Positions 52,537 through 64,000 of a stretch of 64,000 nucleotides of DNA are shown here, one piece after another. Position 1 is the stretch's first letter, and each line of letters begins with the position of its first letter. Source of the stretch: Bradyrhizobium ontarionense (GTDB lineage: Bacteria; Pseudomonadota; Alphaproteobacteria; Rhizobiales; Xanthobacteraceae); assembly GCF_021088345.1 (NCBI RefSeq), contig NZ_CP088156.1, positions 4,092,001 to 4,156,000 of the forward strand, written 5' to 3'. The notes beneath the pieces are model-generated. The model was not told where the DNA came from. It worked only from the letters and a program-made list of their open reading frames with translations, and did no database searches. The position numbers and the translations under genes were made by a program.

Positions 52537-54042
52537 GTGCTCATGGCCGAGAACAGTAGTGTCAACCTCGCGCTATTCGCGACGCAGCAAAAACTGCTCT
52601 TTGCGGACTTCTTCAAGCTTTACCAGACCGTTGCACGACCCCGCCGGATCTTCGTGATCGCGGCAGACGCAAACGCGGTCGCGCGCGTCGAGAAGCTCGG
52701 ACGACGCATCAACAAGACCGGATTCGTGGAGGGCAAGAGCTTCGTCGAGATGGCACTGCTGCGGGTGCCGATCTCGTTTCGCGACGTCGCAAGCCGAATC
52801 GAGAAGTGGGTGTCGCCAACCCGCGATGAAGGACCGGCCCTGCTCGTCGTGGACATGAGCTGGGGCCTGGAGACCAACTCGGCGACAGCGAATTTTGAGG
52901 GCTGGCCCGCACTTGCGGAAGCGCTCGCCCAGCAGTCAGAGCTCTCGATCGCCTCGCTCTATAACCGTCGGGTGCTGATCGACGAGCAGCTGCTCGTCGC
53001 GCTGCGCGGCCATCCGCAAATTCTCACCAGCAGCGGACTGGTCAGCAACCCGCATTGGCTCCCGTCGCGACTGCAGACGCGCGGCGCGCTGCGCGAGCAG
53101 GTGGATTTCTGGCTCGGCGCGATCGCGCCGGAGCTGCGGATCGGCACATCGGCGGCGGCCCTGCACGCGGCCGAAGGCGCCGACCCGATGTGGCTGCTGC
53201 GCCGATCGGCGGAGGAGCCCGGCACTGTTTATCTCGACAGCCGCGACCGCTGGAAGATCCGCTGTTTCGGACGCTTGCGGATCTATCGCAACGACGGCAG
53301 CCAAGTGAACTGGGACCCGCCGGGCGGCGCGACCCGCAAGACCAAGACGCTGTTCGCCTATCTGCTGCAAAAGGGCGGCCACGGCGCCGGTACCGATGAA
53401 CTCGCCGATCTGCTCTGGCCCAACGCCGACGACATCGAGGCTGCGCGTAACCGCCTCTATCACACCGTGCGCTATCTTCGGCTGGCGCTCGGCCAGTCCG
53501 ACCGACGCGACGGCGGCCGCAACTACGTCCGGCGCGAGGGCTCGCGCTACGTGCTGGTGCCGCCGGAGCGCAGCTGGCTCGACATCTCGACCTTCGAGCA
53601 GCTGTGCCGCCAGTCCCAGGGACACATCAAGGCCGGCGCCAGCGACGAGGCGCTGATCTGCCTGCAGGCGGCGGATCGTCTCTACACCGGAGACCTGTTC
53701 GAAGACATTCCGGTCGAGTACGCCGATGATGGCGAGCGCGACTGGTGCTGGAGCAAGCGCTACTGGCTGCGCGATATGTTCTTCAAGGTACAGCGCGACG
53801 CGGCGCGCATCTATCTCGAACGCAGCGACTACTCGGCCGCGCTCGCGCATTGCCAGAAGGCGCTCGCGATTGATCCCTTGTGCGAGATGGCGCATGCCGA
53901 GGCGATGCAGGTGTTCAAGGCGCAAGGACGGCGCGAGGCGATCGACCGCCAGTTCAAGCTCTATCTCGACTCGCTCAAGCATTTCGACAACCGGCCGAAG
54001 AGCGCCTCGCTTCAGGAGCTGCATCGCAAGCTGACGGCTTGA
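52537..54042 (+). CDS. MEDS-like sensory domain fused to SARP (wHTH-BTAD) regulator
   Basis: 501 residues. The N-terminal 200 residues (RRIFVIAADANAVARVEKL..., ALLVVDMSWGLETNS, ELSIASLYNRRVLIDEQLLVALRGHPQIL) follow the pattern of the MEDS domain of methylotroph/DcmR sensors. Residues ~245-350 form an OmpR/SARP winged helix (IRCFGRLRIYRNDG, TRKTKTLFAYLLQKGGHGAGTDELADLLWPN, ARNRLYHTVRYLRLAL). Residues ~355-500 are a BTAD all-helical domain (LDISTFEQLCRQSQGHIKAG...LYTGDLFEDIP...AALAHCQKALAIDPLCEMAHAEAMQ). It is probably the activator of the following gene units. GTG 52537 is best spaced from GGAG; ATG 52543 is an alternative. Confidence 0.82.
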   Translation: MLMAENSSVNLALFATQQKLLFADFFKLYQTVARPRRIFVIAADANAVARVEKLGRRINKTGFVEGKSFVEMALLRVPISFRDVASRIEKWVSPTRDEGPALLVVDMSWGLETNSATANFEGWPALAEALAQQSELSIASLYNRRVLIDEQLLVALRGHPQILTSSGLVSNPHWLPSRLQTRGALREQVDFWLGAIAPELRIGTSAAALHAAEGADPMWLLRRSAEEPGTVYLDSRDRWKIRCFGRLRIYRNDGSQVNWDPPGGATRKTKTLFAYLLQKGGHGAGTDELADLLWPNADDIEAARNRLYHTVRYLRLALGQSDRRDGGRNYVRREGSRYVLVPPERSWLDISTFEQLCRQSQGHIKAGASDEALICLQAADRLYTGDLFEDIPVEYADDGERDWCWSKRYWLRDMFFKVQRDAARIYLERSDYSAALAHCQKALAIDPLCEMAHAEAMQVFKAQGRREAIDRQFKLYLDSLKHFDNRPKSASLQELHRKLTA

Positions 54043-54162: not shown

Positions 54163-54194
54163 CTAAAGAAAACCCAAAGGCCGCCGCTTAGAGT
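54163..54194 (+). promoter_or_regulatory. SARP-type operator-promoter of the P450 operon
   Basis: CTAAAGA (54163-54169), four bases, CCAAAGG (54174-54180), eight bases, then the -10 box TAGAGT (54189-54194). The 11-bp repeat period and the 8-bp distance to the -10 box match known SARP binding sites and the parallel site at 62618-62649. Transcription should begin near 54201, 40 bases before the P450 ATG. Confidence 0.8.
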
Positions 54195-54241
54195 GAGCCC
54201 ATAACAATGTCGCCGTCGAGAGCGGCGAATGGGAGGACGAC

Positions 54242-55498
54242 ATGCCAGGTTCGGCAGCTCAGCTGGCGCGGTGTCCCTATGGCGACGCCGCAAAAGACTT
54301 CGATCCCTTCGAGATGCGCGATCCGTTCCCGTTCTACGAATGGGCGCGCGCTGAGGCACCGGTCTTCTTCTCCAACGAGCTGAAATATTACGTCGTCGCG
54401 CGCCACGCCGACATCAAGGCGGTGTTCGAAGACTGGCGCACGTTCTCATCGGAGAATGCACAGGCGCCGCTTCGCCCGATGTGCGACGAAGGCAAGCGCA
54501 TCATGCGCGAGGGCGGCTTCACCGCCTATTCCGGCCTGTCGGCCCGCGTGCCGCCAGATCACACCCGCATCCGCAAGCTCGTCCAGGGCTGCTTCGGACC
54601 GCGCCGGTTCAGGGCGATCGAGCCGGAGATCAAGGCGATCGTCAACCAGGCGATCGATGCCTTTGCCGATCGCGGACATGCCGACTTCTTCCGCGAATTC
54701 GCCTATGACGTCCCGGCGCTGGTGCTGTTCAAGCTGGTCGGCATCCCCAACATGGACGTGCCGCGCGTGAAGTCATGGGCGGTGAGCCGCGCGCTGCTGA
54801 CCTGGGGCGACCTCAGCGACGACGAGCAGGTCGAGCATGCGCGCAACATGGTCGAATACTGGAACTACTGCCGCGAGCTCGTTCGCCTGCGCCACGACGA
54901 TCCGACCGACGATCTTCCGGGTGATCTGGTCCGGCTGCAGAAGGAGGGCGCCGAGATCAGCGACGAGGAAATCGCCGGCGTTCTCTACAGCGCGCTGTTC
55001 GCCGGCCATGAGACCACGACGACGCTGATGGCCAACGGCATGCGCGAGCTGCTGCAGCGGCGCGAGAACTGGGAAGCCATCATCGCGGAGCCCCAGCTCA
55101 TTCCGAATGCGGTCGAGGAATCGCTGCGCTTCAGCCCATCCATCGTGGCCTGGCGCCGGCGTGCCCTGAAGGACGCCCAGATCGGCGGTGTGCCGGTGCC
55201 GAAGGACTCCAACATCCTCCTGCTGATCGGCTCCGCCAATCGCGACGAGTCCGTGTTCTCCGAGCCGACCCGCTTCGACGTCCGGCGCACCGACGCAAGA
55301 AGCCATCTGGCCTTCGGCTACGGCATCCACACCTGCGTCGGACAACAACTCGCCCGCATTGAGTTCGCGATCGCGCTCGGCGAGCTGACACGCAGGCTTC
55401 CGGGCCTCCGGCTGGCTGCGGATCAGACCATCGACTTCGTTCACAACATCTCGTTTCGCGTGCCGACCACGCTTCGGATCGAATGGGACGTCACCTGA
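54242..55498 (+). CDS. Cytochrome P450, CYP116-like
   Basis: 418 residues, soluble bacterial class. I-helix AGHETT (254-259), ExxR (ESLR, about 293-296), and the haem loop FGYGIHTCVG with Cys365 as the thiolate ligand. Regions RIRKLVQGCFGPRRF, RALLTWGDLSDDEQVEHARNMVEYWNYCRELV and DDLPGDLVRLQ resemble the haem domain of CYP116/ThcB-type enzymes, without a fused reductase. It needs a ferredoxin, probably the one at 62023. GGGAGGACGAC precedes the ATG. First gene of the island operon. Confidence 0.92.
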   Translation: MPGSAAQLARCPYGDAAKDFDPFEMRDPFPFYEWARAEAPVFFSNELKYYVVARHADIKAVFEDWRTFSSENAQAPLRPMCDEGKRIMREGGFTAYSGLSARVPPDHTRIRKLVQGCFGPRRFRAIEPEIKAIVNQAIDAFADRGHADFFREFAYDVPALVLFKLVGIPNMDVPRVKSWAVSRALLTWGDLSDDEQVEHARNMVEYWNYCRELVRLRHDDPTDDLPGDLVRLQKEGAEISDEEIAGVLYSALFAGHETTTTLMANGMRELLQRRENWEAIIAEPQLIPNAVEESLRFSPSIVAWRRRALKDAQIGGVPVPKDSNILLLIGSANRDESVFSEPTRFDVRRTDARSHLAFGYGIHTCVGQQLARIEFAIALGELTRRLPGLRLAADQTIDFVHNISFRVPTTLRIEWDVT

Positions 55499-55582
55499 CG
55501 CGACACGTTCGTCAGCAGGACGCGTTTCACAAGCAACAACAAGTCCGGAATCGATCCGGACCACAAGGTGGGGAACAGACGC

Positions 55583-56662
55583 ATGGGCGCCAACGCAGCC
55601 GCATCTTTCATCGTGCCGTTCGAAGCCGCACGCGAAGACGACTTCCCGAGGATCGGCGGAAAATGCGCAAGCCTGGCGCGCATGATCGCACAAGGCGTGC
55701 GCGTGCCGGCGGGATTTGCGGTCGCGACCGACGCCTACGCCTTGCATCTTCGAAGCAACGGGCTCGAGGCGACGATCAGTGAGCGCCTGTCGCGGATCGT
55801 GCTCGACGATGTCGACGACGAAGAGAAGCTTTCGCACGAGATCCGCGACGCAATCATCGCGCAGCCGATGCCGGGCTCGGTCGAGCAGTCGATCCGCGAG
55901 GCCTATCGCCGGATGTCGCCCGACGGCCAATTGCCGGTCGCGGTGCGCTCGTCGGCAACAGCGGAAGACCTGCCCGATGCCAGCTTTGCCGGCCAGCAGG
56001 ACACCTATCTCTGGGTGGTCGGCGAGGACATCGTGGTCGAGAAGGTCAAGGCGTGCTGGGCCAGCCTGTTCAATGCCCGCGCGATCTCCTATCGCGCCGA
56101 GAACGGGCTCGGCCAGATCGACGTGCTGATGTCGGTCGGCGTCCAGAAGATGGTCAATGCCACCGCCGCGGGCGTGGCGATGACGCTGGATCCCATCAAT
56201 GGCGACCGCACCAAGATCGTGATCGATTCCGCCTTCGGGCTCGGCGAGCCCGTGGTCTCCGGCGAAATTACGCCGGATAATTTTGTCGTCGAGAAGGTGC
56301 TTCTCCAGGTGATCAAACAACGGATCGCCGAGAAGGATTTCGAGCTCGTCGCTGATCGCGCCGAGCGCCGCACGGTCGAGCGCGTGATCGCGCCGGAACG
56401 TCGCACCCTGCCCTCCCTGACCAACGCGCAGGTCCTCGCCGTCGCCAGGCTCGCCAAGTCGCTCGAGCGCAGCATGGGCTGCCCACAGGACGTCGAATGG
56501 GCGATCGATGCCGATCTCCCCGAGGACGAGAATCTCGTCGCGCTGCAGAGCCGGCCGGAAACCGTCTGGAGCCGGAAGAAGAAGCAAACGAGCGCGATCT
56601 ATGAAACCGGGATCGCGGGCGTGCTGGGAACGCTGCTGGCCCCGGTTCAGGCCAAGCGGTGA
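55583..56662 (+). CDS. PEP-synthase-like ATP-binding subunit (PPDK_N domain)
   Basis: 359 residues carrying only the ATP-grasp part of PEP synthase/pyruvate phosphate dikinase. GGKCASLARMIAQGVRVPAGFAVATDAYALHL, LPVAVRSSATAEDLPDASFAGQQDTYL, QKMVNATAAGVAMTLDPINGDRTKIVIDSAFGLGEPVVSGEITPDNFVV and DVEWAIDADLPEDENLVALQSRPETVWS are the domain hallmarks. The phosphohistidine domain is in the next gene, 42 bases downstream. This split resembles the phenylphosphate synthase subunits of anaerobic phenol degraders. The ATG at 55583 is preferred to GTG 55568. Confidence 0.87.
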   Translation: MGANAAASFIVPFEAAREDDFPRIGGKCASLARMIAQGVRVPAGFAVATDAYALHLRSNGLEATISERLSRIVLDDVDDEEKLSHEIRDAIIAQPMPGSVEQSIREAYRRMSPDGQLPVAVRSSATAEDLPDASFAGQQDTYLWVVGEDIVVEKVKACWASLFNARAISYRAENGLGQIDVLMSVGVQKMVNATAAGVAMTLDPINGDRTKIVIDSAFGLGEPVVSGEITPDNFVVEKVLLQVIKQRIAEKDFELVADRAERRTVERVIAPERRTLPSLTNAQVLAVARLAKSLERSMGCPQDVEWAIDADLPEDENLVALQSRPETVWSRKKKQTSAIYETGIAGVLGTLLAPVQAKR

Positions 56663-56704
56663 GCATCACCTAATGAACAACAGAGAAAACGAGGGGAAAC
56701 GACG

Positions 56705-58513
56705 ATGACAGCGCATGCGAAATTCCCAAGTCCCTATGACCTGAAGACTCCTGTCGGCGCCGAGGGCTGGGAAAAGCTTTATCCCTACTATCTGCAGTTC
56801 CAGAACAGCCTGCGCGACAAGGAGGACGGCAAGTTCTGGTTCTGCGACTCGCAGCACTGGCCAAGCCCGTTCAAGCCGTTCGACGCCGTCACCGTCGAGT
56901 TCGCGGTCAAGTGCCTCGGCCAGTACAACACGCGGCACTATCTGATCCCGCCGGCCAACGGCGTCGAATACCGCATTCACAACGGCTATTGCTACATGAG
57001 CCCGGTCGCCGTCGCGCCCGAGCTGATCGGCGGCCGCGTGCCGCATTTCATGGAGCGCGCCGGCTACTACTTCCAGAACTGGGACCGCCTGCTGGCGAAC
57101 TGGGACAAGAAGGTTCGCGCCAACATCGCCGATCTCGAAGCGCTCAACTTCGAGCCGCTGCCCGAAGCCGTGCCGCTGGAGTGGATCACGGGGGGCGTCG
57201 GCCTCGACAACACCTACGCGCTGATGGAGACCTATGATCGGGCGATCCAGCTGCTCTACAAGACCTGGCAGTATCACTTCGAGTTCCTGAATCTCGGCTA
57301 CGCCGCCTATCTCGACTTCTTCAGCTTCATGAAGGGGCAGTTCCCCACCATTCCCGACCAGGCCATCGCCAAGATGGTGCAGGGCGTGGAGGTGGACCTG
57401 TTCCGTCCCGACGACGAGTTGAAGAAGCTCGCCAAGCTCGCCGTGAAGCTCGGTGTCGCCGATGCCCTGAAGAGCGGATCGGTCGACGAGGCACTTGCTG
57501 CAGTCGGCCGTGCGCCGAACGGCGCCGAATGGCTGAAGGCCTGGAAGGAGGCCCAGGATCCCTGGTTCAACTTCACCTCCGGTAACGGCTTCTACTCGAC
57601 CGACAAGTACTGGATCGAGCATCTCGATATCCCGCTCGGCTACATCAGGGACTACGTCGTCCGCGTGCAGCGGGGCGAGGACATCGACCGGCCGACGGAG
57701 GCCATCGCGAGAGAGCGCGACCGGATCACGTCCGAATATGCCGAGTTGCTCGATGCCGACGCCCGCGCCGCCTTCGAGGGCAAGCTCGGGCTCGCCCGCA
57801 CCGTCTTCCCCTATGTCGAGAACCACAATTTCTACATCGAGCATTGGTCGATGAGCGTGTTCTGGCGCAAGATGCGCGAGCTCGGCGCCATCTTCCGTGA
57901 CGCCGGCTTCTGGAAGGACGCCGACGACCTGTTCTATCTCAACCGTCAGGAAGTCCGCGACGCGTTGTTCGACTACGGCAATGGCTGGGCGGTCGGCGCA
58001 CCCGCGATCGGTCCGACCTACTGGCCGCCGGAGATCGAGCGTCGCAAGACAATCCTGGCCGCCCTCGCGACGACGCCGCCGCAGCCCGCGCTCAACAATC
58101 CGCCGGATGTGATCACGGAGCCGTTCACGATCATGCTCTGGGGCATCACCACCGAGAGCATTGGCCGCTGGCTCGATGGCGCTGCGAACACGACCAAGCT
58201 GTCCGGCATGGCGGCCTCGCCCGGCATCGTCGAGGGCCGCGCCCGCGTGGTGCGCTCGGCCGATGAGCTCGGCCAGATCGAGCAGGGCGAGATCCTGGTC
58301 GCGCCGGTCACCGCGCCGAGCTGGGCGCCGATCTTCGGCAAGATCAACGCGATCGTCACCGACATCGGCGGCATGATGTCCCACGCCGCGATCGTGTGCC
58401 GCGAATACGGCCTGCCGGCCGTCACCGGCACCGGGCGCGCAAGCTCCTCGATCAAGAACGGGCAGATGCTGCGCGTCAACGGCTCGACCGGCGAAGTGAC
58501 CATTCTGTCTTGA
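56705..58513 (+). CDS. PEP-utilising enzyme partner with C-terminal phosphohistidine domain
   Basis: 602 residues. The C-terminal domain has the swivelling phosphohistidine motif TDIGGMMSHAAIVCREYGLPAVTGTG with H560. The first ~480 residues (FWFCDSQHWPSPFKPFDAVTVEF, YYFQNWDRLLANWDKKVRANI, FPYVENHNFYIEHWSMSVFWRKMRELG) resemble the substrate-binding middle part of PEP-synthase-like phosphotransferases such as rifampin phosphotransferase, not the TIM barrel of PEP synthase. With the upstream subunit it should transfer the beta-phosphate of ATP through His560 to an acceptor, probably an alcohol. The acceptor is unknown. Confidence 0.85.
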   Translation: MTAHAKFPSPYDLKTPVGAEGWEKLYPYYLQFQNSLRDKEDGKFWFCDSQHWPSPFKPFDAVTVEFAVKCLGQYNTRHYLIPPANGVEYRIHNGYCYMSPVAVAPELIGGRVPHFMERAGYYFQNWDRLLANWDKKVRANIADLEALNFEPLPEAVPLEWITGGVGLDNTYALMETYDRAIQLLYKTWQYHFEFLNLGYAAYLDFFSFMKGQFPTIPDQAIAKMVQGVEVDLFRPDDELKKLAKLAVKLGVADALKSGSVDEALAAVGRAPNGAEWLKAWKEAQDPWFNFTSGNGFYSTDKYWIEHLDIPLGYIRDYVVRVQRGEDIDRPTEAIARERDRITSEYAELLDADARAAFEGKLGLARTVFPYVENHNFYIEHWSMSVFWRKMRELGAIFRDAGFWKDADDLFYLNRQEVRDALFDYGNGWAVGAPAIGPTYWPPEIERRKTILAALATTPPQPALNNPPDVITEPFTIMLWGITTESIGRWLDGAANTTKLSGMAASPGIVEGRARVVRSADELGQIEQGEILVAPVTAPSWAPIFGKINAIVTDIGGMMSHAAIVCREYGLPAVTGTGRASSSIKNGQMLRVNGSTGEVTILS

Positions 58514-58520
58514 ACCAACC

Positions 58521-58549
58521 AGCAGAGGCCGGCAGGGCCGGCCTCTGCT
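58521..58549 (+). promoter_or_regulatory. Strong intercistronic hairpin inside the island operon
   Basis: AGCAGAGGCCGGC (58521-58533), three-base loop, GCCGGCCTCTGCT (58537-58549): a perfect 13-base stem seven bases after the stop of the PEP-utilising gene. No T run follows, so it more likely stabilises the upstream message or partly terminates transcription. Confidence 0.6.
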
Positions 58550-58569
58550 GCCGCATATGGAATACTGCA

Positions 58570-59172
58570 ATGCTCGATAAGTCCGACGTCGGCAATCGCT
58601 ATGACGAGGTATGGCGCATCAGCGAGCCGTACATGCGCGCGCGCAAGAACGACGTCCACATTCCGCTGTCCTATGCCTACGCCCGCAAGCTGCTGTCGCA
58701 CTATCCGGATGCAGACGAGGACATCGTCTCCCTCGCAATCATCCTGCACGATATCGGCTGGTACTCGATCGACATGAAGGACATCATCGAGAAGGGATTC
58801 GGCGCCAACATGATGAAGTCCGACGTGCGCTTTCTGCACGAAAGCGAAGGCGTTCGCATGTCGCGCGAGGTCCTGGAGCAGGCCGACTGGCCGGAGCCGG
58901 TGATCGTCGCGGTCGGCGAGATCATCGATGGCCACGATACCCGCCCCTACCCGCGCTCGCTGAACGACCGGGTCGTGCGCGACGCGGACAAGCTGTGGCG
59001 CTACACGACCACGGGCGTCGCGGTTGCCTGCGACTGGTTCAAGATGACGCCGCGCCAATATGCGTCGCGCCTGACAACCCAGCTTGCCGTGCTCGAGACC
59101 GAAGCCGGACGGCTGATGGCCGAGGAGGCGCTGAACAAGACCCGGGCAGCGCTGATGCTCGACCTGATCTGA
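58570..59172 (+). CDS. HD-domain protein 1 of the island
   Basis: 200 residues. Candidate metal ligands are H30, H60-D61 (ILHDIGW), H90 (FLHESEG), H122 (IIDGHDTR) and D138 or D140 (RDADKLWR), a six-ligand set that can hold two metals. HD proteins are usually phosphohydrolases, but a subset (PhnZ, TmpB-like) are diiron oxygenases with the same ligand pattern. The paralogue two genes downstream shares GHDTR and DADKLWR. Here, next to a phosphotransferase, hydrolysis or oxidative cleavage of a phosphorylated intermediate is conceivable. Confidence 0.82.
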   Translation: MLDKSDVGNRYDEVWRISEPYMRARKNDVHIPLSYAYARKLLSHYPDADEDIVSLAIILHDIGWYSIDMKDIIEKGFGANMMKSDVRFLHESEGVRMSREVLEQADWPEPVIVAVGEIIDGHDTRPYPRSLNDRVVRDADKLWRYTTTGVAVACDWFKMTPRQYASRLTTQLAVLETEAGRLMAEEALNKTRAALMLDLI

Positions 59173-59188
59173 ACAACGGACGGCGGAC

Positions 59189-60634
59189 ATGGACATGTTC
59201 ATCGACGGCCGCCGGGTTGCAGCCCAAGGCGGAGCGACCTTCGACGTTCTCGATCCGGCGACCGGCGAGACGATCGACAGCGTTCCGGATGCGGGCCGTG
59301 CGGATGTCGATGCCGCGATCCGGTCGGCCGAGACGGCGCTCCAGGCCTGGAAGGCGACACCCGTCGCCGAACGCGCGCGCCTGCAAAAGGCTGCGGCGCA
59401 GCTGATGCGCGCGAACGCCGAGGAGCTCGGCCGTCTGCTGACCAGGGAGCTCGGCCGTCCGCTGGCGGGCGCGATCGGCGAAATCCAGCGCTCGGCCGAA
59501 TTGCTCGACGTCTATGCCGAAGAAGGCCTGCGCCTGCACGCCGAGATGCCGCTGACGGGCGTGGCCGGCGAGAAGATCATCATCACGCGCGAGCCGGTCG
59601 GCGTCGTGGTCGCGATCACGCCGTTCAACTATCCGGTGACCTTGCTCTGCTTCAAGCTCGGCGCCGCGCTGATGGCCGGCTGCACCGTCGTCGCCAAGCC
59701 TGCCGAGGACACGCCGCTGTCGACCTTGCGGCTCGCCGAACTGTTCCGAACGGCGGGCTATCCAAACGGCTGCTTCAACGTCGTGACCGGCCGCGGCCCC
59801 GACCTCGGCATGCAGATGATCGAGCATCCGACGCCGCGCAAGATCGCCTTCACCGGCGGCACCAGGGCCGGCAAGGCGATTGCCGCCGCGGCAGCAGGAA
59901 CGATGAAGCGCGTCACGCTCGAGCTCGGCGGCCAATGTCCGGCCATCGTCTGCGCCGACGCCGACATCGGCGCAGCCGCTGCGGCGATCGCCCGTCACGC
60001 CTTCGCCAATTCCGGTCAGTTCTGCTACCGAGTCAATCGCGTCTATGTCGAGCGCCCCGCCTATGCGGCGTTCCTCGACGCGCTCGCCGGCAAGGTCGCG
60101 CAGCTCGAAATCGGCAACGGCCTGACCTCGAATTGCGCGCTCGGGCCTTTGGTCAACGAGAAGATCTACCGCAACAGCGAGCGACAGATTGCGGACGCCC
60201 GCGCCCTCGGCGCGACCGTGCTGACCGGCGGAGCCCGGTTGACTGGCGGCCTCTACGACAAGGGCTGGTTCCTGCCGCCGACGGTAATTGCCGATGCCAA
60301 TCCTTCCGCTCTCGTCATGACCGAGGAAACGTTCGGGCCGGTGCTCGGCGTTGCCGCATTCGACGACCGCACTGAAGCGCTGCGGCTCGCCAATGCGACG
60401 GTCTATGGCCTGGCGGCCTTCGTGTTCTCGCGCAACCTCGCGGTAGGGCTGACATTGGCCGAGCGCCTCGAAGCCGGCTCGGTCTGGGTCAACGACATCC
60501 AGCGATCGAACCAGCGCGCGCCGTTCGGCGGCATGAAGCAGAGCGGGATCGGCCGCGAAAAGGGCCGCTACGGCATCGAGGACTATCTCGAATACAAGAC
60601 GATCTATCTCAGCTACGACGCGGAGCTGCGATGA
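59189..60634 (+). CDS. NAD(P)-dependent aldehyde dehydrogenase
   Basis: 481 residues, complete ALDH fold. N147 in TPFNYP, K170 in VVAKPAEDTP, general base E245 (LELGGQCP), nucleophile C279 (NSGQFCYR), and EETFGPVLGVAAF. It oxidises an aldehyde to the carboxylate, presumably the product of the SDR or P450 steps. The gene overlaps the following HD gene by four bases (ATGA), so they are translationally coupled. Confidence 0.95.
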   Translation: MDMFIDGRRVAAQGGATFDVLDPATGETIDSVPDAGRADVDAAIRSAETALQAWKATPVAERARLQKAAAQLMRANAEELGRLLTRELGRPLAGAIGEIQRSAELLDVYAEEGLRLHAEMPLTGVAGEKIIITREPVGVVVAITPFNYPVTLLCFKLGAALMAGCTVVAKPAEDTPLSTLRLAELFRTAGYPNGCFNVVTGRGPDLGMQMIEHPTPRKIAFTGGTRAGKAIAAAAAGTMKRVTLELGGQCPAIVCADADIGAAAAAIARHAFANSGQFCYRVNRVYVERPAYAAFLDALAGKVAQLEIGNGLTSNCALGPLVNEKIYRNSERQIADARALGATVLTGGARLTGGLYDKGWFLPPTVIADANPSALVMTEETFGPVLGVAAFDDRTEALRLANATVYGLAAFVFSRNLAVGLTLAERLEAGSVWVNDIQRSNQRAPFGGMKQSGIGREKGRYGIEDYLEYKTIYLSYDAELR

Positions 60635-61248
60635 CGCATTTTCTGCGCGAACAGGATCTGCCGATCTGGCTTGCTGCGCGGCCGTGGCTGGACGTGCGCT
60701 CGAACGACGAACATACGCTGATCTCCTATCGTCTCGGCCAGGCGCTGCTGCGGATCCATCCCGACGCGGACGCCTCCGTGGTGCTGCCCGCGATCCTCAT
60801 GCACGACGTCGGCTGGAAGAAATTCCCGCCCGAGCAGCTCGCCGCCGCCGTCGGCCCCAATCCCAGATATCCCGAGCTGCAGCGCGCCCACGAGATCGAG
60901 GGTGTGAAGATCGCGGCCGAAACGTTCGCACGGCTGGCGATCCCTGGGCTGCAGGTCGAGACCATCCTGGCGATCATCGACGGCCACGACACCCGCAAGA
61001 AGGCGATCTCGCGCGAGGATGCGCTGATGAAGGATGCCGACAAGCTGTGGCGCTTCACCGGCCATGGGGTCGCGACGATCGGCGGCTGGTTCGATACGCC
61101 GCCAAAGGAGACGCTCGCGATGCTGGAGAGCTTCGTGCTGCCATCGATGCTGACCGAGGCCGGTACGACCATGGCCCAGGCGCTGATCGCGGAGGGCGTC
61201 GCATCCGCGTTCATGACGGATCTGCTGCACATCGAGGTTCCCGCATGA
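60631..61248 (+). CDS. HD-domain protein 2 of the island
   Basis: 205 residues. Metal ligand candidates H28, H58-D59 (MHDVGW), H87 (AHEIEG), H119 (IIDGHDTRKK) and D135 or D137 (KDADKLWR), in the same order and spacing as the first HD protein. Overlaps both neighbours by four bases (ATGA junctions with the aldehyde dehydrogenase and SDR genes). Two diverged HD copies in one operon suggest distinct steps or a heterodimer. Confidence 0.82.
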   Translation: MTHFLREQDLPIWLAARPWLDVRSNDEHTLISYRLGQALLRIHPDADASVVLPAILMHDVGWKKFPPEQLAAAVGPNPRYPELQRAHEIEGVKIAAETFARLAIPGLQVETILAIIDGHDTRKKAISREDALMKDADKLWRFTGHGVATIGGWFDTPPKETLAMLESFVLPSMLTEAGTTMAQALIAEGVASAFMTDLLHIEVPA

Positions 61249-62006
61249 GTCCGATCCAACTGCAAGGGAAGCGCGTCATCGTCACCGGCGCCGCCGGCGG
61301 GCTCGGCCGCGGATTTGCGCTCGCCTTCGCTGCGGCCGGTGCCGAGGTCGTCGCCGCCGACATCCGTCTTGGCGGCGCCGAGGACACCGCGCGACTGGTC
61401 CGCGACCGCGGCGGCAAGGCGCACGCGGCCGAGGTCGACGTCGCCGACGAGGCGTCCACTACGGCGCTAGCACAATTCGCGCTTGCGCGCATGGGTGGCC
61501 TCGACGTGCTGGTCAACAATGCCGCTATCTATGCCGGACTCGCGCGCCGTAGCTTCGAGGCGATCCCCGAAGCCGAGTGGGATCGCGTGATGCGCGTCAA
61601 CGTCAAGGGCGTGTGGATGATGAGCAAGGCGGCCGCGCCGCTGATGCGGCGCGCCGGCGGCGGCGCGATCGTCAACGTCTCGTCCGCCACGGTCATGAGC
61701 GGCTCACCGATGTGGCTTCACTACGTGTCGTCGAAAGGCGCCGTCATCGCGATGACCCGCGCTCTGGCGCGCGAGCTCGGCGACGACAAGATCACCGTCA
61801 ATGTCATCGCGCCCGGCTTCACGCTCACCGAGGCCAGCCTCGGCCTGATGGAGAACGCCGCCGAATATGGCGTTTCCCGCGGCGCATTGAAGCGCGCGGC
61901 CGACGTCGACGACATGGTCGGCGGCGCACTGTTCTTCGCTTCGTCAGCCGCGGCCTTCATCACCGGCCAGACCCTGATCGTCGATGGCGGCCGGCAGTTC
62001 ATCTAG
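61245..62006 (+). CDS. Short-chain dehydrogenase/reductase of the island
   Basis: 253 residues. TGAAGGLG (14-21), ADIR after beta-2 (NAD preference), NNAA (91-94), catalytic S146/S147, Y160 and K164, and the C-terminal GQTLIVDGGRQF. Likely interconverts an alcohol and a carbonyl group in the pathway. ATG 61245 overlaps the upstream stop by four bases; longer open sequence upstream is the HD gene in another frame. Confidence 0.93.
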   Translation: MSPIQLQGKRVIVTGAAGGLGRGFALAFAAAGAEVVAADIRLGGAEDTARLVRDRGGKAHAAEVDVADEASTTALAQFALARMGGLDVLVNNAAIYAGLARRSFEAIPEAEWDRVMRVNVKGVWMMSKAAAPLMRRAGGGAIVNVSSATVMSGSPMWLHYVSSKGAVIAMTRALARELGDDKITVNVIAPGFTLTEASLGLMENAAEYGVSRGALKRAADVDDMVGGALFFASSAAAFITGQTLIVDGGRQFI

Positions 62007-62022
62007 GGATACGCAACGACCC

Positions 62023-62346
62023 ATGCCCAGGATCATCTTCATCGAGCCCGACGGCACCGAACGTCTCGTCGATGCCGAGCCCGACGAGAGCGCCATGCAG
62101 GCGGCGAAGCGCAACGGCGTCGACGGCATCATCGGCGAATGCGGCGGTTCCTGCATCTGCGCCACCTGCCATTGCCACGTCGACAAGGCCTGGCTCGATC
62201 GCGTCGGCCCGGCTGGTGACATCGAGGCCGACCTGCTCGAGTTCGAGGCCGCGGACGTCCGCGCCGAAAGCCGCCTGGCCTGCCAGATCCCGATCACCGA
62301 GGCGCTGGACGGCCTCCTGCTGCACGTCGTCGGCCGCAGCCGCTGA
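62023..62346 (+). CDS. [2Fe-2S] ferredoxin, adrenodoxin/putidaredoxin type
   Basis: 107 residues. C40-X5-C46-X2-C49 and C87 provide the cluster ligands (GECGGSCICATCHCHVDKAW; RLACQIP). Extra cysteines C44 and C51 are beside the cluster loop. It should carry electrons to the P450 at the head of the operon; the matching ferredoxin reductase gene is not in the window. Last gene of the unit before the 460-base gap. Confidence 0.93.
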   Translation: MPRIIFIEPDGTERLVDAEPDESAMQAAKRNGVDGIIGECGGSCICATCHCHVDKAWLDRVGPAGDIEADLLEFEAADVRAESRLACQIPITEALDGLLLHVVGRSR

Positions 62347-62617
62347 TCAGCGGCAAGCCTGCGCTGGCCTCGCGTCCACTCCGTCGTTTGTCGGCGGCGC
62401 GGCAGGCTAAAGCGTACCTCGCGGCGCTTTCATAGCTTCGGTCATGAGGCGCATCGAGCTTCTCGCTTGAAGCACGACACCGAAGCGTTGACGTCCGACA
62501 TAGTCGATCCTCCTTCCGCACCGCATCGATCATCTGCGCGCTTGCGTGGCCGTACGCACGGGTCCGCACTCGATCGCAAGTCCGTTGTTGCGTGGCGATT
62601 TGCGCGCGCGATCGCGA
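62347..62617. other. Intergenic region after the ferredoxin gene
   Basis: About 270 bases before the SARP-type site of the diiron hydroxylase promoter. No clear terminator or gene was recognised. The interval 62650-62805 after that site is a leader of about 150 bases without obvious structure. Confidence 0.5.
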
Positions 62618-62649
62618 CCAAAGAAAAACCAAAGAACGTCCCCTAGACT
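62618..62649 (+). promoter_or_regulatory. SARP-type operator-promoter of the diiron monooxygenase unit
   Basis: CCAAAGA (62618-62624), four bases, CCAAAGA (62629-62635), eight bases, TAGACT -10 box (62644-62649). The spacing is identical to the P450 site at 54163-54194. The two heptamers are exact copies of each other. Transcription should start near 62656, leaving a leader of about 150 bases. Confidence 0.82.
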
Positions 62650-62805
62650 GGCCCTCAATGCATCGAGCAACGATCTCTCCGCCTCTGTTGCTGAAGATCG
62701 TACGTCATCGACACGAGCCGCGCAAAGTCCGTCCATCCAAGAGCGGCGGCGCGGAACGCAACCAAGAAGAACGAACGCGATCACATAGCTCGGGAGGAGC
62801 AACGC

Positions 62806-64000
62806 ATGCCGAAGCTGCAGCGGCGGGACTATTACGACACAGCCCGCGACATGAACTGGGCTTTCTCCTATGTCAGCGAGGACGAGGTCTTTCCCGAGGA
62901 GCTCTCGAAGAGCTTCGGCATCCATGGCGAGCAGTGGTGGGGCTGGGACGAGCCGTATAAGCTGACCTACCGCGAATACGTTCACAACCAGGCCGGCAAG
63001 GACGACGGCATCTACTCGATCCGCTCGACCATCGCGCGCTCCAATCTGTACGACAATCTCGACGCCGGCTGGAAGTCGGCGATCAAGGCGCATTACGGCG
63101 CCATTCCGGTTCCGGAATACTTCGCCTCGATCGGCGAGGCGCGCATGGCCCGGTTCGGCCGCGCCGCCGCCTGGCGCAACATGGCTACGTTCGGCACGCT
63201 CGACGAATGCCGCCACGGCCAGGCGCAGATCTACTTCCCTTATTGCCTGCTGGCTAAGGACCCGCAATTCGACTGGGCCCATAAGGCAATGCACACCAAC
63301 GAGTGGGGCGTCATCGCGGCGCGCAGCCTGTTCGACGACATGTTCACCGCCAATGATGCGGTGTCGACGGCGATCCAGCTGACCTTCACCTTCGAGACCG
63401 GATTCACCAACCTGCAGTTCCTCGGCATGGCCTCCGATGCGCTGCATGTCGGCGACATCGAGTTCGGCGCGCTGATCTCCTCGATCCAGACCGACGAGGC
63501 GCGGCATTCGCAGCAGGGCGAGCCGACGCTGAAGATCATGATCAACAACGGCAAGAAGGCCGAAGCGCAGAAGATGGTCGACCAGATGTTCTGGCGATCG
63601 TGGAAGCTGTTCGCGCTGCTGACCGGTATCTCCATGGACTACTACACGCCGCTGGAAAGCCGGACGATGTCGTTCAAGGAGTTCATGCAGGACTGGATCT
63701 GTCGCCAGTTCATGGACCAGTTCAAGGATCTCGGCATGAACGTGCCGTGGTACTGGGAAGAGCATTTCCTGCCCGAGCTCGACTGGGTCCATCACGCCTA
63801 TCACATGGGCGTCTGGTTCTGGCGACCGACGGTATGGTGGAATCCGGACGCGGGCGTGTCCACCGCCGAGCGCGACTGGCTCGAGCAGAAATATCCCGGC
63901 TGGAACGACCGGTTCGGCAAGCTGTGGGACGTGATCGACGACAATGTCCGCGCAGGCCAGATCGAGAAGACCTATCCGGCGACGCTGCCGATCGTCTGCA
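62806..64000 (+). CDS. Diiron monooxygenase hydroxylase alpha subunit, TmoA/alkene-MO type (3' end outside window)
   Basis: 398 codons seen, open to the window end. Sequence and numbering align directly with toluene-4-monooxygenase TmoA. The iron ligands are E104 (VPEY), E134 and H137 (TLDECRHGQ), E197 (FTFETGF), E231 and H234 (QTDEARHSQ); active-site T201, Q141, F176 and F205 are kept. Positions 103 (Gly in TmoA) and 180 (Ile) are Pro and Phe, so pocket shape probably differs. It hydroxylates or epoxidises an aromatic or alkene/alkane with O2. GGGAGGAG precedes ATG 62806. Partner subunits should lie beyond the window. Confidence 0.93.
   Translation, partial: MPKLQRRDYYDTARDMNWAFSYVSEDEVFPEELSKSFGIHGEQWWGWDEPYKLTYREYVHNQAGKDDGIYSIRSTIARSNLYDNLDAGWKSAIKAHYGAIPVPEYFASIGEARMARFGRAAAWRNMATFGTLDECRHGQAQIYFPYCLLAKDPQFDWAHKAMHTNEWGVIAARSLFDDMFTANDAVSTAIQLTFTFETGFTNLQFLGMASDALHVGDIEFGALISSIQTDEARHSQQGEPTLKIMINNGKKAEAQKMVDQMFWRSWKLFALLTGISMDYYTPLESRTMSFKEFMQDWICRQFMDQFKDLGMNVPWYWEEHFLPELDWVHHAYHMGVWFWRPTVWWNPDAGVSTAERDWLEQKYPGWNDRFGKLWDVIDDNVRAGQIEKTYPATLPIVC

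Follow-up and report, generated by a model that had tools for sequence, protein, structure and literature searches.

How might two neighbouring operons of a predicted catabolic island, one opening with a cytochrome P450 gene and the other with a diiron monooxygenase gene, be brought under common control? The question arises from a 64,000-nt stretch of Bradyrhizobium ontarionense DNA (GCF_021088345.1, NZ_CP088156.1:4,092,001-4,156,000, forward strand; the whole stretch is called the window below), for which an earlier note had claimed that both promoters carry the same operator of the SARP type, i.e., two heptamers separated by 4 bp and followed after 8 bp by a -10 box. The elements in question, in window coordinates, are:

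54163..54180, + strand: operator 1, CTAAAGA-AAAC-CCAAAGG, two heptamers with an 11-bp period
54189..54194, + strand: putative -10 box TAGAGT, 8 bp past heptamer 2 of operator 1
62618..62635, + strand: operator 2, CCAAAGA-AAAA-CCAAAGA, two heptamers with an 11-bp period
62644..62649, + strand: putative -10 box TAGACT, 8 bp past heptamer 2 of operator 2

Our answer, drawn from comparative sequence analysis, is that a pair of molecules of the SARP-type regulator encoded beside the P450 operon very probably takes the place of the -35 element in the manner of AfsR and would switch on the toluene-monooxygenase-like and cre-type alkylphenol-phosphate operons together.

Re-reading both promoters confirmed the heptamers, 4-bp spacers, 8-bp gaps, and hexamers: the P450 promoter (54163-54194) has CCGCCGCT between heptamer 2 and TAGAGT, and the monooxygenase promoter (62618-62649) has ACGTCCCC between heptamer 2 and TAGACT. 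The full pattern, C(C/T)AAAG(A/G)-N4-CCAAAG(A/G)-N8-TAGA(G/C)T with up to two mismatches, matched twice in the window and never in 100 shuffles. A scan of the whole 8,435,845-bp genome, which the earlier note had proposed, likewise gave only these two promoters (reversed-pattern control, 0). Loosening the -10 to TANNNT added a single match, with two mismatches, at 1253358, and the reversed control also gave one. The pattern scan found no second site upstream of the window regulator gene. Because the pattern was derived from the two window sites, the real test lies in other genomes.

There, the site takes the form of an 18-bp block whose sequence is CYAAAGRNAAMCCAAAGR or nearly that. It lies ahead of the P450 gene in all 27 loci (other gene orders included), ahead of the diiron monooxygenase gene in all 12 cases, and ahead of a GMC-oxidoreductase gene in five of six; the counts of 27 and 12 include the window's own two sites and two stretches selected by their DNA. 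The earlier note had named absence of the site from orthologous islands as grounds for abandoning its claim, and these islands keep it at both promoters. Its two-heptamer layout needs one amendment: the heptamers are present but are not free-standing, since the 4-bp spacer is kept too (NAAM), and the conserved unit is therefore a single 18-bp block.

Searching the genome collection by protein turned up 18 loci, and a family search found the regulator in 4 of 296 genomes. In this first set, the site stands before the P450 gene in all 19 distinct P450-bearing loci, window included; one of these, L025 from a Maribacter-labelled metagenome-assembled genome (MAG), was reached via the site pattern after its genome had been selected by a protein match. 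The site also stands before the gene for the monooxygenase alpha subunit in all 11 loci with that stretch (again including the window), the twelfth being that of G289, whose stretch was obtained after its site was already known. Loci L018, L020, and L023 have the monooxygenase operon on the opposite side of the regulator gene, and the site stays with the operon. For column counts, 19 of 30 sites were chosen by hand, thinning near-identical strains (G289 is not among them). Each of the 18 block columns carries 1.2-2.3 bits, and columns outside the block mostly carry <0.6 bits; the highest upstream value, 0.9 bits, is A/T-rich and lies ~16 bp upstream. The -10 columns of the same sites carry 1.7 (T32), 1.1 (T27), and 0.8 (A28) bits.

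A regulator profile search of Rhodobacteraceae was positive in 10 of 295 genomes, eight of them new, with regulators 37-45% identical. All eight of these loci, found from protein alone, have the P450 site (core exact in seven, one change in one), and five of the six with a divergent GMC oxidoreductase gene have a second site before that gene. Overall, the eight loci gave 17 matches at one mismatch or fewer (three are stray), where dinucleotide shuffles predict 1.4 (0.18 per locus). Locus L099 has a weak minus-strand match (ACAAAGA) without a -10, and no GMC gene was found there. What stays the same is the P450 operon; the second one differs between loci (diiron monooxygenase; GMC oxidoreductase plus transporter; or none seen in the stretch), and the site is kept. 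The divergent second operon of L097, L098, and L100-L103 consists of GMC-type oxidoreductase and transporter genes, named by eye, that replace the diiron monooxygenase.

Across 44 sites, TANNNT starts 8 bp past heptamer 2 in 31 and 9 bp past it in seven (38/44 together); all other gaps from 0 to 39 combined account for five. In 2000 shuffles of the downstream 60 bases, gaps 8-9 had a mean of 0.96 and a maximum of five. The 8-bp gap originally described thus stands for both window promoters but becomes 9 bp in those seven of the 44 sites across genomes. The set omits the G289 monooxygenase site, which has TACACT at gap 8, and three variant sites of a distant relative (G039, below); adding these four makes 39/48. 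No -35 element was found at the two window promoters, where the best candidates match TTGACA at 3/6 with spacers of 16-18. If the -10 is set at -12 to -7, the 18-mer occupies -38 to -21, centred at -29.5; the afs box is given as -40 to -19, also centred at -29.5 (PMC10936776). According to that paper, SARP promoters have direct repeats of 11 or 22 bp, the 3' repeat lying 8 bp from the -10. In sequence, the promoters described here share this layout: repeats of 11-bp period, about 8 bp between the 3' repeat and the -10, and a box that covers the -35 position.

Three features near these promoters were also seen. At nine of the 44 sites, all in Rhodobacteraceae-type loci (L097-L099, L101, L018, and L020), GATTC comes directly after the final T of the -10 and is possibly a conserved discriminator or start region. 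CATAAC occurs shortly past the -10 in Bradyrhizobium P450 promoters (window 54195-54206) and in the L007 and L008 monooxygenase promoters. The leader to the start codon is ~150 bases for the monooxygenase (window 62650-62805) versus ~40 for the P450 gene.

The site is nearly confined to the island. In 21 genomes (the window's own, three family genomes with the regulator, and 17 behind the loci), CYAAAGRNNNNCCAAAGR matched 40 times: the 30 matches at islands all have the NAAM spacer, and none of the 10 elsewhere do. The NAAM-spacer site occurs once or twice per genome, at the island only (30/30), in those regulator-bearing genomes that have a match (20 of 21). In the 296 family genomes, the strict 18-mer had six matches, all at the island, in three genomes with a regulator of at least 60% identity. 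The other 293 genomes had two (G023 and G128); neither of these has TANNNT at gap 8-9 or a regulator match in its genome, and no island gene was found in the 13.0- and 7.6-kb stretches around them. The strict 18-mer thus tracks genomes with the regulator. The earlier note had said that occurrence at many unrelated genes would count against its claim, and no such spread was seen; its observation is right and is stronger than what it claimed. The class-wide regulator-profile search (385 genomes) returned only the window's own genome, that of the family of G312 (249 genomes) returned only G312, and plasmids gave no regulator match at E<=1e-10.

The gene that would encode the protein reading this site lies directly upstream of the P450 operator, as had been claimed, ending 120 bp before the first site:

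52543..54042, + strand: regulator gene with a MEDS-like N-terminal domain, an OmpR-type winged helix, and BTAD (SARP-type activator), from Pfam, PDB profile search, and Foldseek

The SARP identity of its C-terminal half was borne out by the Pfam BTAD match, an AfsR profile match, and AfsR and EmbR in the top Foldseek rows. Pfam gave BTAD at E 9e-15 and Trans_reg_C at E 0.036, the latter under the curated cut-off; at E<=0.1 in one alignment of 10 regulators, BTAD and Trans_reg_C were each found in 10/10 and MEDS in 8/10 (best MEDS E 6.8e-6). An OmpR-type winged helix directly followed by BTAD, as in SARPs, is present in the window regulator. A PDB profile search with the SARP half gave 46 matches, including three AfsR entries (E 2.6e-4 to 5.4e-4), AfsR being the sole transcription regulator among them; the other 43 were TPR or designed repeat proteins. 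With the winged helix alone, the only matches up to E 1 were three, all AfsR (E 0.02-0.04). For the structure model of the SARP half (mean pLDDT 79.6), the six leading Foldseek rows were all AfsR or EmbR (E 7e-6 to 8e-5, 252-260 columns). The full-length model is poor in the winged helix, and all 50 VIA-align matches listed lie in its TPR-like part. Across 20 aligned regulators, the window's included, identity to the window protein averages 63% in the winged helix, 70% in the recognition helix, and 62% in BTAD, against 40% in the MEDS part. The SARP half is not N-terminal, as it would be in a SARP, but lies at about 236-499, after the MEDS-like part; we therefore term the protein SARP-type rather than SARP. 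In large SARPs, the extra domains are described as sitting at the C-terminus (PMC10936776). The MEDS-like part before the SARP half is treated here as a variant architecture, not as a defining failure.

From the sites, their conservation, their link to the regulator gene, and their -10 spacing, all of which are observed, we infer binding, sigma contact, activation, an inducer, and the chemistry of the pathway. The regulator would be a one-component activator, its MEDS-like N-terminal domain sensing a pathway substrate (an alkylbenzene or alkylphenol). Its C-terminal SARP half would bind the 18-bp block as a head-to-tail, side-by-side pair, one protomer per heptamer, and the pair would offer sigma-70 region 4 a landing place, standing in for the -35 as AfsR does. 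The predicted replacement of the -35 is put forward because the block ends 8-9 bp before the -10, at the -35 position, and is centred near -29.5. Both operons would be turned on together: the diiron enzyme may make a phenol, which the cre-type operon would phosphorylate before the P450 oxidises the side chain, the phosphate is removed, and the product is oxidised to an acid.

Several observations weigh against this account. Six sites, namely the weak L099 site and five P450 promoters from one Rhodobacteraceae group that have CANNNT at gap 9, lack TANNNT at gap 8-9; L100 has a GMC gene but no site before it; and some of the 44 sites come from near-identical strains and are not independent. In the window regulator, MEDS scores only 20.5 bits against a Pfam cut-off of 29.8. 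Over its full length, the SARP-half model has a Foldseek root-mean-square deviation of ~16 A to AfsR, which probably reflects a different placement of its two domains. By VIA Z in the SARP-only run, several TPR proteins tie with or exceed AfsR and EmbR, and it is therefore the order and coverage of the Foldseek rows that carry the fold argument. TANNNT is absent at gaps 7-10 from all three G039 variant sites. G039 is also the only case that parts the site from the P450, and the pattern was loosened to fit it. Finally, every CreJ-like P450 found (those of 37-41% aside) was accompanied by the regulator.

The last point bears directly on which protein reads the site, because co-occurrence alone cannot show this when all CreJ-like P450s found came with the regulator. 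Another, unlinked DNA-binding protein might bind the block, the SARP-type gene regulating something else or only sensing. As a control, we looked for an island that has the P450 but no regulator gene; the sample of 296 family and 149 Rhodobacteraceae genomes yielded none. Among the former, only G071 has a further P450 at E<=1e-90 (41%), and 19.9 kb around it match no other island gene except a 32% short-chain dehydrogenase (SDR); among the latter, four strong P450 matches (E<=1e-150) are in regulator genomes, and the other three are P450s of 37-40%. We nevertheless consider an unlinked binder improbable, if the best of the alternatives. Confinement of all 30 NAAM-spacer matches to the island is unlike the distribution of a global regulator's sites, no other DNA-binding domain was reported among the island proteins scanned, and the layout and -10 spacing are those of a SARP promoter.

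A further argument against an unlinked binder is G039, where sites of a related form lie close to a related regulator although the P450 is absent. Its regulator is 37-39% identical to that of the window, and its cluster has no P450. The strict 18-mer is absent from G039, which has three variant sites (MYAAAGANNNNCYAAAGR). Nothing else in its 3.1 Mb matches, and the three lie no more than 13 kb upstream of the regulator gene; they precede a transporter operon, dikinase genes, and a gene whose product matches no Pfam family. The pattern was widened to fit these three sites, which are therefore suggestive rather than independent. The G039 cluster (L056) encodes dikinase subunits of 32% and 28% identity, an inositol-monophosphatase-family protein, and an AMP-binding (CoA-ligase-type) enzyme, suggesting another phenol-phosphate pathway.

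Less probable still is that the regulator binds the block as a repressor and is released by an inducer. The block does overlap the -35 position, a place where bound proteins often repress, but neither window promoter has a usable -35, so the basal promoter should be weak, and SARPs are described as activators (PMC10936776 and PMC10972967). That the block is instead the extended -35 element of an alternative sigma factor is very improbable, and this candidate was rejected on spacing. A fixed distance between block and -10-like hexamer would suit it, but the heptamers lie 8 bp and 19 bp from the -10, with at best the 3/6 match to TTGACA at the usual -35 position; moreover, the -10 is a plain TANNNT, the block halves form an 11-bp-period direct repeat, and no sigma-factor domain was found among the island proteins scanned. 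Chance, or the shared ancestry of two recently copied promoters, would draw on the several close relatives behind the 44 sites, but it has a negligible probability: chance was ruled out by the window, genome, and family scans and by the shuffles for -10 spacing and the protein-only loci, where 8/8 with 37-45% regulators, found without DNA, carry the site (shuffles, 0.18 per locus), and the flanks (block to -10, and upstream) are near background in the chosen divergent 19-site set.

An activator pair in place of the -35 is thus our preferred explanation, and the genes that it would control are these:

54242..55498, + strand: cytochrome P450, CreJ-like (Pfam p450; best PDB matches 5xjn/5gwe, which we take to be CreJ, E about 6e-140)
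55568..56662, + strand: ATP-binding subunit of a PEP-synthase-like dikinase, CreI/PpsB-like (PPDK_N E 4e-109)
56705..58513, + strand: phosphotransfer subunit, CreH/PpsA-like, PRK08296 (domain scan)
58567..59172, + strand: HD-domain protein 1, candidate phosphohydrolase (scan of the longer frame 58396-59172; weak HDIG)
59189..60634, + strand: aldehyde dehydrogenase (domain scan)
60631..61248, + strand: HD-domain protein 2, candidate phosphohydrolase (domain scan)
61245..62006, + strand: short-chain dehydrogenase (domain scan)
61984..62346, + strand: 2Fe-2S ferredoxin (domain scan)
62806..64000, running past the window, + strand: diiron monooxygenase alpha subunit, ToMO/T4MO-like (PDB comparison)

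Beyond the window (L055, whose position 1 is window 61000), the monooxygenase operon continues with genes for Rieske, MmoB, beta-subunit, reductase, luciferase-domain, and ferredoxin proteins. The alpha subunit is nearest to ToMO (E 2e-189) and T4MO (1e-184), with phenol hydroxylase at 3e-43; together with the Rieske, effector, beta, and reductase genes, this places it in the toluene/o-xylene monooxygenase family. Between the alpha and Rieske genes, an 81-aa frame (L055:3388-3633) is a gamma-subunit candidate by eye only. The luciferase-domain protein (Pfam Luciferase PF17648; L055:6246-6944, window ~67245-67943) overlaps the reductase gene, and its counterparts in other islands are 47-66% identical.

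The Corynebacterium glutamicum cre gene functions (PMC7764795 and PMC12167813) served as the parts list for comparison. By domain, the island has the same types: P450, two-part dikinase, HD proteins, aldehyde dehydrogenase, SDR, and ferredoxin. The HD proteins would be the phosphohydrolases of the dephosphorylation step. The natural reading of these genes is a predicted route from alkylbenzene to alkylphenol (monooxygenase), through phosphorylation, P450 side-chain oxidation, and dephosphorylation, to hydroxybenzoate. With the monooxygenase product feeding the cre-type steps, one switch common to both operons would make sense.

The system may extend to a second phylum. In the Maribacter-labelled MAG (G312; contig GC about 0.41), residues 1-442 of a 34% regulator end one short contig, and another contig opens with regulator residues 448-497, followed by the site and then by island genes in the window's order (P450 54%, dikinase subunits 52% and 65%, HD protein 55%, and aldehyde dehydrogenase 58%). 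Here (L025/L070 344-375), TATGTTTG stands 9 bp downstream of the operator, and we take it to fit the Bacteroidota -7 consensus TAnnTTTG. The genome has 12 other matches at two mismatches (reversed control, six), which look like chance in a low-GC genome. These sequences point to a SARP promoter architecture serving catabolism in Pseudomonadota and perhaps also in Bacteroidota. Tentatively, and with rather more doubt than conviction, we suggest that the SARP mode of activation, in which a paired winged helix acts for the -35 and the operator, of 11-bp period, ends 8-9 bp before the -10, is a portable module and not an actinobacterial speciality. Fused to an N-terminal MEDS sensor for hydrocarbons, it would have kept one operator across Alphaproteobacteria and, in the Maribacter-labelled MAG, would be joined to a Bacteroidota-type -7 element, so that one activator family would serve two housekeeping promoter types.

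How far does this system resemble known ones? AfsR and the Streptomyces SARPs share with it a winged helix followed by BTAD, 11-bp-period repeats, a 3' repeat 8 bp from the -10, and a box over the -35 with its centre near -29.5 (PMC10936776). They differ in several respects: the operator here is CYAAAGR, against CGGCAAG as the PimR consensus and CGTT(T/C)ATCG as the AfsR repeat; the sensor is N-terminal and MEDS-like, whereas AfsR and other Streptomyces SARPs have C-terminal NOD/TPR parts; and the host belongs to the Pseudomonadota, with catabolic genes as neighbours. EmbR of Mycobacterium tuberculosis is alike in its SARP-type half (Foldseek over 252 columns) but is described as having a C-terminal FHA domain and has other targets (PMC10936776). 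EtnR2 and DcmR have a MEDS-type sensing part and lie near diiron monooxygenase or C1-compound genes; in the available passages of PMC8784404 and PMC11507031, they are not described as joining MEDS to a SARP half, whereas a MEDS-like part is joined to one here, and EtnR2 is described as acting with a separate DNA-binding partner, EtnR1. The same passages have a MEDS regulator accompanying the diiron alkene monooxygenase of mycobacteria (PMC8784404) and tie MEDS regulators to the sensing of small hydrocarbons (PMC8784404 and PMC11507031). The C. glutamicum cre cluster (4-cresol via phosphorylation, with P450 CreJ) is alike by domain, including candidate phosphohydrolases, but the cre-type operon here adjoins a ToMO/T4MO-like monooxygenase operon and a SARP-type regulator. 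In its proposed mechanism, the system agrees with the SARPs; it departs from them in its sensor fusion, host group, operator sequence, and target genes. The earlier note held that an alphaproteobacterial SARP operator would be new, and no counter-example was found: the open-licence literature, surveyed mostly by titles and listings, many of them unrelated, gave no report of a SARP operator outside actinobacteria.

SARPs are familiar from Streptomyces, where they switch antibiotic clusters. If the present account is true, SARP-type sigma adaptation would be older or more mobile than thought. With a defined 18-bp target and a predicted regulon, the sensor fusion could be a biosensor for alkylphenols or alkylbenzenes, and a constant operator with a varying second operon would make the co-evolution of regulator and operator directly testable.

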